The notes below the pieces were generated by a model that ran no database searches, had not been told where the DNA came from, and worked only from the letters and a program-made list of their open reading frames with translations. The position numbers and the translations under genes are program-made. From an uncultured Fibrobacter sp. (GTDB taxonomy: Bacteria; Fibrobacterota; Fibrobacteria; Fibrobacterales; Fibrobacteraceae), in NCBI GenBank assembly GCA_946405515.1, contig CAMJHM010000002.1:1-64000 (forward strand): a DNA stretch of 64,000 bases, written 5' to 3'. Positions 13,608-22,139 of this stretch are shown one piece after another; positions within the stretch are counted from its first letter, which is position 1; every line of letters starts with the position of its first letter.

Positions 13608-14387
13608 TTAGTTCTTTTGTATGTCTTCTAAAACAGCGTCTTTTAATGTCTTTCCGTTTCTTTCCGTCGCTTTAATTTCTGAAATCTTCCTGAAAACGGT
13701 GTGAGCGGCGTCACGTTCGCTTTTGCGATCAAAGAGGATGGAAACCTGATTTTGCCTTTCGGCCAGTTCTTTTTCAGGCATGCGAAGTGTTGAACGTACA
13801 AGAAATTTTGGATAGAGAAAACGATATTTTCGGGCAAGGGCATCGGCGATGCTTTCTACGGGGTCGATAAGAATAAGTGATTGATTTTTGCCCAGTTGTT
13901 CTGCGGCAAGAATCGCGCCCGTTCCGCGCCCAGCAAGGAATTGCACGTGCCCTCCCGCCAGTTGTGAGGCGCATTCGGCGATGGCTTTTGCATCGGGCTC
14001 GAATGTTTCTTGGGAGGGTGTTCCCTTGTTGTCTGCGCTCCCGCGATAGTTGAATGTTATAAGCCTGAGCTTGTCTGTCGTTCCCATTTCGGCGAGGAAC
14101 TGAGCTGCATCTTCGTCTGCGCCGGGGTAGTAAAGGAGCGCAGGCGCATCGTTGTTCCCGACAATCCAGCCGTTGAGTATTGTGCCGTCTTCCAGCGTGC
14201 ATTCTGCAGACTTTGCAGTCTCTTGTATGGCGGCTCTTGCCTCGTTGTGGCTAATGGCGCGCGGGTAGGCGTTTCGGCGTTCGGTAAGGGCGAGGTAGAA
14301 TACCATGCTTATATATAAGACGACTACTATGCCAATGAATCGGAGAATGCGAGAAACTGTGCTGGAAAGAGCCTGCTTGAAATTCAT
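13608..14387 (-). CDS. Membrane-anchored alpha/beta-hydrolase-fold protein lacking the nucleophile Ser
   Basis: N-terminal TM, DGTILNGWIVGNNDAPALLYYPGADEDAAQF...LITFNYRGSADNKG...VQFLAGRGTGAILAAEQL. Confidence 0.65.
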   Translation of the reverse strand: MNFKQALSSTVSRILRFIGIVVVLYISMVFYLALTERRNAYPRAISHNEARAAIQETAKSAECTLEDGTILNGWIVGNNDAPALLYYPGADEDAAQFLAEMGTTDKLRLITFNYRGSADNKGTPSQETFEPDAKAIAECASQLAGGHVQFLAGRGTGAILAAEQLGKNQSLILIDPVESIADALARKYRFLYPKFLVRSTLRMPEKELAERQNQVSILFDRKSERDAAHTVFRKISEIKATERNGKTLKDAVLEDIQKN

Positions 14388-14408
14388 GTGCCAAATATAA
14401 AAAACTGT

Positions 14409-14621
14409 GGGTGTTCTCTTTGGGATGCGTTAAAAACAAAAGGACTTCCGCTTGGAGTTAAGCGGAAGTCCGAGGGATGGGATTGGGTGTTCTCTAAATA
14501 TAGCTAAAAAATTTGAAAGTGAACACTCTTTTTATAAAAAAGTGTTCCCAAAGTGTTCTCTAGCACAATGTCTGAGCGGTTTCGCGAAAAATTTGATAAA
14601 ATTTTTTTAAAAAGGGTGTTC
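14409..14621. promoter_or_regulatory. Candidate operator array: six GTGTTC/GAACAC hexamers including a 27-bp near-palindrome
   Basis: GTGTTC at 14411, 14487, 14542, 14553, 14616; GAACAC at 14521. GAACACTCTTTTTATAAAAAAGTGTTC at 14521-14547. Confidence 0.55.
14439..14471 (-). terminator. Hairpin with minus-strand T-tract inside a divergent promoter region
   Basis: GGACTTCCGCTT-ggagtt-AAGCGGAAGTCC perfect 12-bp stem (14442-14471). Minus strand continues TTTTGTTTTTAA. Confidence 0.7.
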
Positions 14622-14648
14622 CCAGAATAAAGAAAAAAATTTAGATTT

Positions 14649-15479
14649 ATGTTGATGAACGTTTACGCATACTATAACTATAGAAAGTACCTGCAGGACT
14701 ACTACGAGTACCAGAAGTCCGTCCAGCGTTACTTCTCTTATCGGTCCTTCGCCAAGAAGGTCGGTTATAGTTCATCCGGTTTTTACTTGGATCTGATCAA
14801 GGGTCGCAAGTCGCTGACACCGGCTATGGTCACGAAGTTCATTGCTGCGCTTGGCTTGAACGAACGCGAAGGGCGCTACTTCCAGCTGATGGTGGATTTC
14901 ACTCACGCTGAATCGCCCGCTTCTAAACAACAGATATTCGATCAGATGTCCGCGCTTTTACCGCGGACAACAAAGACTTTAACTAAGAACCAGCAGGAAT
15001 ACTATAGCAAGTGGTATTATGTTGCTGTTCGTGAATCGCTTGCCGTTTTGGATATTAACGAGAAAAATATTCCCGAACTGGCTCTGTTCCTCAATCCCCG
15101 CATTTCGGTGCCGCAAGCAAAACAGGCTATCCGTTTGCTTCTGGATTTGGGGCTGATTGAACTTGTGGACGGTTTTTACCGTTCCGTGAACAAAACAATA
15201 TCCAGTGGACGTGAAATTGCGCCGATCTTTATCCACCAGTTCCAAAAACAAATGGTAGATTTGGGTAAAGAAGCCATCGATCACTACAGTGTGGAAAGGC
15301 GCAACGTGTCCTGTACGACGATGAGCGTATCGCCCAAGGGTTTGGAACGCATCATCAACAAGATAGACTTGTTCCGCAAGGAAATCTTGGACATCGTTCG
15401 CTCCGACGAAGGTGAGTCCATGATTTGCGAACTGAACATTCAATTTTTCCCGTTGAGCAAAGAAAAGGAGGCAAAATGA
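14649..15479 (+). CDS. TIGR02147 family protein (putative HTH-containing regulator)
   Basis: YYNYRKYLQDYYEYQKSVQRYFSYRSFAKKVGYSSSGFYLDLIKGRKSLTPAMVTKFIAALGLNEREGRYFQLMV N-terminus typical of the family. Confidence 0.88.
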   Translation: MLMNVYAYYNYRKYLQDYYEYQKSVQRYFSYRSFAKKVGYSSSGFYLDLIKGRKSLTPAMVTKFIAALGLNEREGRYFQLMVDFTHAESPASKQQIFDQMSALLPRTTKTLTKNQQEYYSKWYYVAVRESLAVLDINEKNIPELALFLNPRISVPQAKQAIRLLLDLGLIELVDGFYRSVNKTISSGREIAPIFIHQFQKQMVDLGKEAIDHYSVERRNVSCTTMSVSPKGLERIINKIDLFRKEILDIVRSDEGESMICELNIQFFPLSKEKEAK

Positions 15480-20354: not shown

Positions 20355-22139
20355 ATGTTTTTGAGAACTGGCTTTATACTTCCTTGTGTGTCGTTGGCTG
20401 TTGCTTTGTTGGCTTCGTGTGGCGATTCCGACGAAGTCATTCATCCTGTTTCGCGGCCTGTTGAATTGTTGGAACTTGATTGTATGAAAGATGGCAGCGT
20501 TGATTCGTTGACGCATACGATTGAGTGTGCCTATCCCAAGAATGCAGAAAATACGGTCAAGGTGAAAAAGTTTGAATTTTCGGGCGACTATTCGGCCTAT
20601 GTCGTTGTGGGGGATGACCTGGAAGATCCCGAACTGGACTGGGCTATGCCGGTGGAAACGGGCGCAAAAATCCCCGTTCCCGATACGGGCACGCTTGCCT
20701 TTGCGATTTTGGATGGGAAGGACCGTGTTGTCGATGTATGGAAAGTCGTCTTTGTCGCTGAAAAGAGCTCGTCTTCAAAGAAGTCCAGCAGTTCATCTGC
20801 AAAGTCGGGGAGTTCGTCTTCGAAAAAGTCTAGCAGCTCTTCTGTAAAATCGGAGAGTTCATCTTCGGGGAAGCCCAGCAGTTCATCTGTAAAGTCAGAG
20901 AGCTCGTCGTCCACGAAGAAATCCAGTAGTTCTTCTACAAAGTCGGGGAGTTCATCTTCGGATAAGTCCAGTAGCTCGTCTGCAAAGCCGGGGAGTTCGT
21001 CTTCGGAGAAGCCTGGCAGTTCTTCTGCAAAGCCGGAGAGTTCATCGTCGGTGCCGCCGGCCAGTTCGTCATCTGTGAAACCGGAAAGCTCATCTTCGGA
21101 AGAATCGAGCAGTTCGTCGGTTATTGAGGTCCCAACGAACGATCCGTTGACCCCCATTGTTCCTCCGTCATCCTCGGATTCCGATCAAGTCGTTCTCCTG
21201 AGTGATTTTGCCGTGGATAAGCAAAATAGCTCCGTTCATGTGAAAGGAAACAAGGTTTATGTGGAAGTTCCTTACGGATCGAATTTGAAGGCGTTGAGGG
21301 TTTTGCCGATGGATACGGTTGCCAATTTGGAACGCCCTGTGAAAATGAAATTTGTTGACGATTTAGGTGTGCTCAACGATTACACTGTGGTTGCCGGAAT
21401 GCAGCTCCCGGGAACGACGTTCGATGCCCGCGACTATAGCGGATTCTGGGCGACAACAAGCGACGCTATGGAGAATACAGTGACAGAGGCTGCGATTAAG
21501 ATTAAGTCGGAGGCGAACCTTGAATTTGGGTCATCGCAGATGACGATTTCGACAAAAGAAGTTTCCGGATCTTGGATTGGTATAGAAGGTTCCTGGAAAA
21601 TGGCCGGTGGTTTTTATTTTGCCGGAACGTATGATGGTACTTCGGCCATTGATATTTACCAACAAGGTTATTCTAGCGGAACGCCAAGTACTGGTGCTTC
21701 TGATATATCGAAGGACATGACTTTTGGAAAACCGTTCAGTGCGCGCCCCACAGGCTTTGACGTAACCTATTCTTATTCGCATGTGAAAAACAGCAATTCG
21801 ACTTACCCGCAAAAGAGTTTGATTTATGTGATGCTCGTGAGTCGCGATAACAAGGTGGTCGCATCGGGCGTTGTGACGGACAATTCCAGCATCGGTATGC
21901 ACAAAGTCCATGTAGACTTGGCCTATGGTAGTGATTCGGGGCTCTTGTCTTCGAATTATCCGGTTGCATCGGGACTTTCGGTGGGGACGGGTAACGAGAA
22001 TGTTGCCACTATCCATGTGATGTTTGCGTCTTCGGCGTATGCGTTTGTTGTCGCCGGGGGAACTCTCGGGAACGATAACAAGTATCGTGGTGGCGAGAAT
22101 TCCAAACTTGTCGTTGATGATTTTAAACTGGTTTACTAG
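20355..22139 (+). CDS. Lipoprotein with Ser-rich linker and C-terminal PCMD-like domain
   Basis: Lipobox LLASCGDS; SSSSKKSSSSS repeats (about 20760-21125); LPGTTFDARDYSGFWATTSDAMENTVTEAAIKI... C-terminus. Confidence 0.75.
   Translation: MFLRTGFILPCVSLAVALLASCGDSDEVIHPVSRPVELLELDCMKDGSVDSLTHTIECAYPKNAENTVKVKKFEFSGDYSAYVVVGDDLEDPELDWAMPVETGAKIPVPDTGTLAFAILDGKDRVVDVWKVVFVAEKSSSSKKSSSSSAKSGSSSSKKSSSSSVKSESSSSGKPSSSSVKSESSSSTKKSSSSSTKSGSSSSDKSSSSSAKPGSSSSEKPGSSSAKPESSSSVPPASSSSVKPESSSSEESSSSSVIEVPTNDPLTPIVPPSSSDSDQVVLLSDFAVDKQNSSVHVKGNKVYVEVPYGSNLKALRVLPMDTVANLERPVKMKFVDDLGVLNDYTVVAGMQLPGTTFDARDYSGFWATTSDAMENTVTEAAIKIKSEANLEFGSSQMTISTKEVSGSWIGIEGSWKMAGGFYFAGTYDGTSAIDIYQQGYSSGTPSTGASDISKDMTFGKPFSARPTGFDVTYSYSHVKNSNSTYPQKSLIYVMLVSRDNKVVASGVVTDNSSIGMHKVHVDLAYGSDSGLLSSNYPVASGLSVGTGNENVATIHVMFASSAYAFVVAGGTLGNDNKYRGGENSKLVVDDFKLVY

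Follow-up and report, generated by a model that had tools for sequence, protein, structure and literature searches.

A conserved TIGR02147/DUF4423 regulator and a predicted small RNA in Fibrobacter, probably with phased direct-repeat operators and a link to plant-cell-wall degradation

RESULTS

An intergenic region of an uncultured Fibrobacter sp., located in a window of 64,000 nucleotides (the whole stretch of DNA that was analyzed), probably belongs to a conserved module of a TIGR02147/DUF4423 regulator and a small RNA (sRNA), which is equipped with phased direct-repeat operators and linked to plant-cell-wall degradation. Based on the comparison of genome sequences, we consider it likely that the regulator and the sRNA share these operators and that the regulator binds the boxes and governs a regulon for cell wall degradation and the envelope. 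The sRNA gene and its terminator hairpin were absent from the preliminary description of the region, which had proposed an autoregulatory array with a palindrome that controls the regulator and an adjoining lipoprotein gene.

Conservation and phasing of the boxes

The sequence elements of the preliminary description are all present, i.e., six GTGTTC/GAACAC hexamers at positions 14411, 14487, 14521 (inverted), 14542, 14553, and 14616, the direct-repeat pair GGGTGTTCTCT at 14409 and 14485, a near-perfect 27-bp palindrome at 14521-14547, and the palindrome TTTCGCGAAA at 14580-14589. GTGTTC is not overrepresented in the window as a whole (36 copies versus 31.3 expected). Locally, six copies per 256-bp stretch correspond to a Poisson P of ~5e-9, and 5,000 dinucleotide shuffles of the intergenic region reached a maximum of 2 versus the real six. 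Single 8-mers show little excess (GTGTTCYC in the own genome, 159 versus 134 for the reversed control); only the tandem form of the motif is informative, and single 8-mer counts are not. The following elements are referred to below.

14411..14416, plus strand: additional, lineage-specific GTGTTC copy close to the divergent hydrolase-like gene
14487..14492, plus strand: box D (GTGTTC), at the start of the predicted sRNA gene; kept in all genomes with the sRNA
14521..14547, plus strand: 27-bp palindrome, with the inverted box 14521-14526 and box B inside it; clade-specific
14542..14547, plus strand: box B, first half of the putative tandem operator; conserved
14553..14558, plus strand: box C, second half of the putative tandem operator, 11 bp from B; conserved
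14616..14621, plus strand: box A (GTGTTC), over the -35 region of the predicted regulator promoter

Upstream regions were compared for the regulator orthologs from 78 Fibrobacter and 14 sister-genus genomes, and GTGTTC is enriched in them. The genus-wide pattern in this set comprises four same-strand GTGTTC/TGTTC boxes: D is located at the 5' end of a minus-strand RNA gene, B and C form a tandem pair with a spacing of 11 bp, and A covers the -35 region of the regulator. The earlier idea of an operator-like array tied to the TIGR02147 ortholog has thereby gained ground, and autoregulation appears to be a reasonable reading of the pattern. In contrast, the control region does not appear to be solely that of the regulator/lipoprotein pair: the array appears to serve the divergent sRNA gene as well, and its tandem core is seen again at genes for cellulases and other secreted proteins. 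The palindrome did not survive as the key element of the array, and as an operator it was rejected: its inverted half (14521) is present in 7 of the 78 genomes only, namely, the own genome and its six closest relatives. The copy at 14411 is found in 3/78 genomes. TTTCGCGAAA was discarded as a functional element due to its lack of conservation across relatives, and GTGTTC is not the motif of every TIGR02147 gene, as the other paralogs of the own genome lack the array.

B and C are spaced 11 bp apart except in two sequences, in both of which one box has decayed, and box A is located 34 to 42 bp upstream of the start codon in all genomes but one. Species differ in the distance from C to an intact box A (20-21, 49-53, 62-63, 72-74, 83, and 94 bp), for which the best-fitting period is 10.5 bp (p = 0.0003 versus random spacings, a value that is a guide only because the species are related), and D and B are 55-57 or 64-67 bp apart. 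Spacing steps of ~10.5 bp are expected of proteins bound to one face of the DNA. In a clade whose box A has decayed to TTGTTC (L042-L045, L048), the C-A distances of 57, 66, 76, and 77 bp are out of phase. Class-level orthologs with 43-45% identity (L221, L223) have GTGTTC and, 11 bp on, CGTTC in their upstream regions, and no sRNA is present there.

Regulator, neighboring genes, and promoters

13608..14387, minus strand: divergent hydrolase-like gene with its own -10 box (TATATT, 14399-14394); downstream neighbor of the sRNA gene, not part of it
14642..14647, plus strand: predicted -10 box (TAGATT) of the regulator promoter; in 73 of 86 distinct sequences, ATGAAC is preceded by TAnnTT at a distance of 13-14 bp
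14655..15479, plus strand: TIGR02147/DUF4423 regulator gene with the conserved start ATGAAC at 14655, not 14649; NCBIfam score of 339.7 bits
15476..16927, plus strand: lipoprotein gene, a conserved partner whose start overlaps with the stop of the regulator gene (ATGA)

The assignment of the regulator to TIGR02147 (NCBIfam Fsuc_second) was correct, with a full-length match over residues 3-271 that scores far above the cutoff of 50 bits; DUF4423 is also contained in the protein. Exactly one close ortholog each was found in 78 of the 80 genus genomes. The own genome harbors 26 TIGR02147 family members; the identity of the other members with the regulator amounts to 23-31% over near full length, and their upstream motif differs. 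An XRE-like N terminus is plausible, if weakly so: the Pfam models HTH_31 and HTH_3 match many orthologs with scores below the gathering score, and the more sensible Foldseek matches of the N-terminal domain (model pLDDT of 68) are the XRE proteins ClgR, CI, HigA, and SinR, with E values of at least 1.9. The whole-protein AlphaFold model was too poor for use. A PDB search with the regulator sequence gave no match, viral relatives of the regulator were not found, and none of 41 orthologs scanned has a receiver or Trans_reg_C Pfam domain.

Of 92 loci, 91 have the lipoprotein gene next to the regulator; the remaining locus is cut short. Given the position of the predicted -10 box 13-14 bp before ATGAAC, the start codon is probably at 14655 and the regulator mRNA probably leaderless, which places box A over the -35 region. 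At 14387-14399 and 14640-14657 of the window, -10 boxes end ~7 bases before the starts of the hydrolase-like gene and the regulator, so near to the start codons that both mRNAs look leaderless. The same arrangement is seen for several TIGR02147 paralogs, and annotated starts in the genus may often be too far upstream. The upstream regions of many paralogs from the own genome (among L002-L023) have a different common motif, similar to TTTTTGTATMAT, ~50-70 bp before the start, which is often followed by TTGAC and a TATATT-type -10 box just before the ATG; it is possibly the operator of a second TIGR02147 subgroup.

Tandem boxes at other genes

The putative tandem operator reads GTGTTC-N5-GTGTTC. 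A strict tandem pattern was matched roughly once in each genus genome, in most cases at the home locus, and a looser version gave 148 matches in the genus, about half of which were home, versus 24 for the reversed control. Most of the non-home matches whose surroundings were fetched are intergenic and located upstream of secreted-protein genes. The contexts are a non-exhaustive selection from the hit lists, made without regard to gene function among matches that were non-home and in many cases recurrent. According to Pfam and homology, the genes preceded by the tandem encode GH45 lipoproteins, GH8, GH10, GH5, and GH9 enzymes, an FKBP-type isomerase lipoprotein, and other lipoproteins; for GH45, it was found in several clades, including the own genome of the window (L374). 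Glycoside hydrolases represent 7 of the 13 tandem-preceded gene groups (binomial p of ~5e-7), from which matches inside genes (L245, L382-L384, L386, and L387) were left out. The background of this test were the 134 CAZyme genes among the 3,085 genes of strain S85 (PMC3079729).

A spacing control with 50 FKBP upstream regions revealed a near-exact tandem at 11 bp in 14 regions, at 12 bp in 3, and at 7-10 and 13-16 bp in none. The membership is lineage-dependent, e.g., the FKBP gene of the own genome and many GH45 genes are devoid of the tandem, and in some clades the tandem of the FKBP genes ends ~16-18 bp before a TAtcTT-like box. Beside the tandem of GH45 (L294-L300) and FKBP (L324-L349) genes, we observed a CRP/FNR-like sequence (TTGACAnnnnTCAC, TGTGAnnnnnnTCAC) that may tie these promoters to catabolite control.

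As the tandem precedes genes for cellulases, xylanases, and envelope proteins, a regulon for plant-cell-wall degradation and the envelope is probably governed by the regulator. It is conceivable, if rather unlikely, that the boxes bind a different protein, e.g., an OmpR/PhoB-type response regulator or another global regulator, whose regulon would then include the TIGR02147 gene and the sRNA. Such a protein would account for the exact 11-bp direct-repeat geometry and for tandem boxes at many genes distant from the regulator, whose own DNA-binding fold gives a weak signal. However, the looser tandem pattern is nearly absent where the TIGR02147 ortholog is lacking (2 matches in 16 family genomes), tandem boxes are kept upstream of the class-level orthologs at 43-45% identity, and the densest array of the genome is located at the regulator's own promoter. 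Since the boxes stay with the ortholog in class-level relatives and nearly vanish without it, the regulator is the best candidate for the binding protein.

A predicted small RNA on the minus strand

14433..14494, minus strand: predicted small noncoding RNA of ~55-62 nt (covariance model, 7e-19; alignment of 51 distinct relatives; hairpin covariation; fold z-score)
14442..14471, minus strand: intrinsic terminator hairpin with a 12-bp stem and a 6-nt loop (terminator scan), followed by a T-rich tract (14441-14432)
14475..14492, minus strand: 18-nt block GAACACCCAATCCCATCC, candidate sRNA seed; identical in 51/51 distinct aligned sequences
14497..14502, minus strand: predicted -10 box (TATATT) of the sRNA promoter; 83 of 86 distinct sequences have a TAnnTT-like box at this fixed position

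Within the region, conservation is highest in the block GGACTTCC...GGAAGTCCGAGGGATGGGATTGGGTGTTC. Read on the minus strand, the -10 box is followed by the 18-nt block, a hairpin of 11-12 bp, and a U-run, and the predicted RNA, which would start near GAACACCC, has a C-rich unpaired 5' part with a candidate segment for target pairing (AACACCCAAUCCCAUCC). In the hairpin, 8 of 11 pairs have changed at both positions (a level reached by 0 of 500 shuffles), the fold z-score is -5.8, and there is no start codon within the 62 nt. The promoter has no conserved -35 box, and the tandem boxes are located ~60 bp upstream. The predicted RNA thus combines the characteristics of bacterial intergenic sRNAs, i.e., an own promoter, a conserved unpaired segment, an intrinsic terminator, and no open reading frame; Rfam gave no match at the gathering score in the region.

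The covariance model detected one strong copy per genome in 76 of the 80 genus genomes and, beyond the genus, copies in 14 genomes from five other genera of the family (E values of 1e-8 to 1e-14), always next to the regulator and the lipoprotein gene (14/14). The 18-nt block is kept in 13 of the 14 sister-genus copies, and a search for the exact 18-mer in 85,462 species genomes retrieved Fibrobacter and its family plus four unrelated genomes, which is no more than chance. Candidate second copies were rejected, as the weak covariance-model matches examined were terminators or chance. Among 111 family genomes, 90 have both regulator (E value up to 1e-70) and sRNA, 5 have the regulator only, none has the sRNA only, and 16 have neither, figures that are all inflated by the relatedness of the genomes; three of the five regulator-only genomes carry a diverged RNA.

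The unpaired C-rich 5' end looks like a seed. At the same place, L218, L219, and L220 have an RNA with a strong terminator and a changed C-rich 5' segment (e.g., CCCAAATCCCCAATCCCC), which suggests that the seed can evolve. A conserved target was not found among the complementarity matches and neighboring gene starts examined: near-full complementarity (≤3 mismatches of 19) was abandoned as a target criterion, as the matches examined were almost all within coding genes, and pairing with the start of the lipoprotein, the hydrolase, or the next gene was no better than for shuffled seeds. A CCC-rich segment (AACACCCAAACACCCAATACCCC) followed by a terminator hairpin is present after a gene in L226 (G050 contig 43, ~20940-21000) and may be an unrelated sRNA or a terminator. 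In one clade (L047-L059), the stretch between the sRNA terminator and the next gene contains a hairpin-rich sequence (e.g., TTTGGCGTTATGGCCC...GGGCCTATAACGC) that looks like an intergenic repeat family.

The location of the element on the same strand as the hydrolase-like gene, which lies downstream in 89 of 92 loci, would also be compatible with a 5' leader with an attenuator of that gene instead of a free sRNA. We regard this as improbable, since the hydrolase-like gene has its own -10 box seven bases before its start, was not found in L053, L146, and L147, although the sRNA or part of it remains there (the RNA is kept in L146 and L147), and is separated from the RNA by intergenic repeats in one clade; moreover, the 18-nt block shows no variation, and an alternative hairpin was not observed. 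Least probable of all is an action of boxes A, B, and C in RNA, in which the 5' end of the sRNA (GGGAACACC) would pair with GGUGUUCCC in a long 5' untranslated region of the regulator and repress it: over the start region of the regulator, the mean energy of the duplex is -18.1 versus -8.3 kcal/mol for shuffled seeds, but the conserved -10 box predicts a leaderless mRNA without the boxes, the 10.5-bp phasing is a property of DNA, and the GH45 boxes are oppositely oriented, so that GH45 mRNAs would be unable to pair.

DISCUSSION

Proposed mechanism

The intergenic region would represent a shared control region of two divergent genes, with the regulator gene, whose mRNA is probably leaderless, and the subsequent lipoprotein gene on the plus strand and the ~60-nt sRNA gene on the minus strand. 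The regulator protein would bind to the GTGTTC boxes in the DNA, with the tandem pair one helical turn (11 bp) apart as the core operator, which may cooperate on one face of the helix with the box over the regulator promoter and the box at the sRNA start. In this way, it would control its own gene, the sRNA, and a regulon for plant-cell-wall degradation and the envelope, and further mRNAs are probably drawn into the response by the sRNA, via the unpaired, C-rich segment at its 5' end. Boxes in place of the -35 element or further upstream (~-60) fit better with activation than with repression, which suggests activation as the sign of regulation. The binding protein, this sign, and the expression and targets of the sRNA are the parts of the explanation that we infer.

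Significance

In the genome paper of F. succinogenes, the switching of cellulase genes was an unanswered question, and few regulators were located near cellulase genes (PMC3079729). The current locus contributes a named regulator, an operator of defined sequence (GTGTTC-N5-GTGTTC), and a predicted sRNA as parts of a possible control of cellulose digestion. It further proposes a function for TIGR02147, a family without an assigned one, and the sRNA is maybe the first conserved candidate of its kind in Fibrobacter; our search of the open literature found neither a paper naming TIGR02147 nor, among the papers listed, one on an sRNA of Fibrobacter. We tentatively propose, while rating the odds as slightly against it, that the TIGR02147/DUF4423 protein is the first known cellulase transcription factor in Fibrobacter, with a dedicated family-wide sRNA whose 5' end doubles as an operator box. 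If true, the TIGR02147 expansion would represent a lineage-specific set of regulators for secreted and envelope proteins.

Comparison with known systems

A cellulase regulator of another bacterium is CelR of Thermomonospora (named in PMC3079729). Like CelR, the regulator would control scattered cellulase genes via a common operator, but it belongs to a different protein family and its module includes an sRNA. Compared with the other TIGR02147 family members of Fibrobacter, it is likewise a full-length member but stands out as a single-copy core ortholog. Response regulators of the OmpR/PhoB type often bind direct repeats 11 bp apart, and the tandem boxes resemble such operators in their two direct repeats with this spacing, at or upstream of a missing -35 box; they differ in the box sequence and in a linked regulator without a receiver or Trans_reg_C domain. 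Divergent pairs of a transcription factor gene and an sRNA gene are known from GcvA-gcvB, OxyR-oxyS, and SgrR-sgrS. As in these systems, a regulator and a short, terminator-ended sRNA gene are divergently arranged around one control region with putative shared operators, whereas the regulator is of the TIGR02147/DUF4423 type instead of LysR or SgrR, the operators are phased direct repeats, and the sRNA is a predicted one that is unrelated in sequence.
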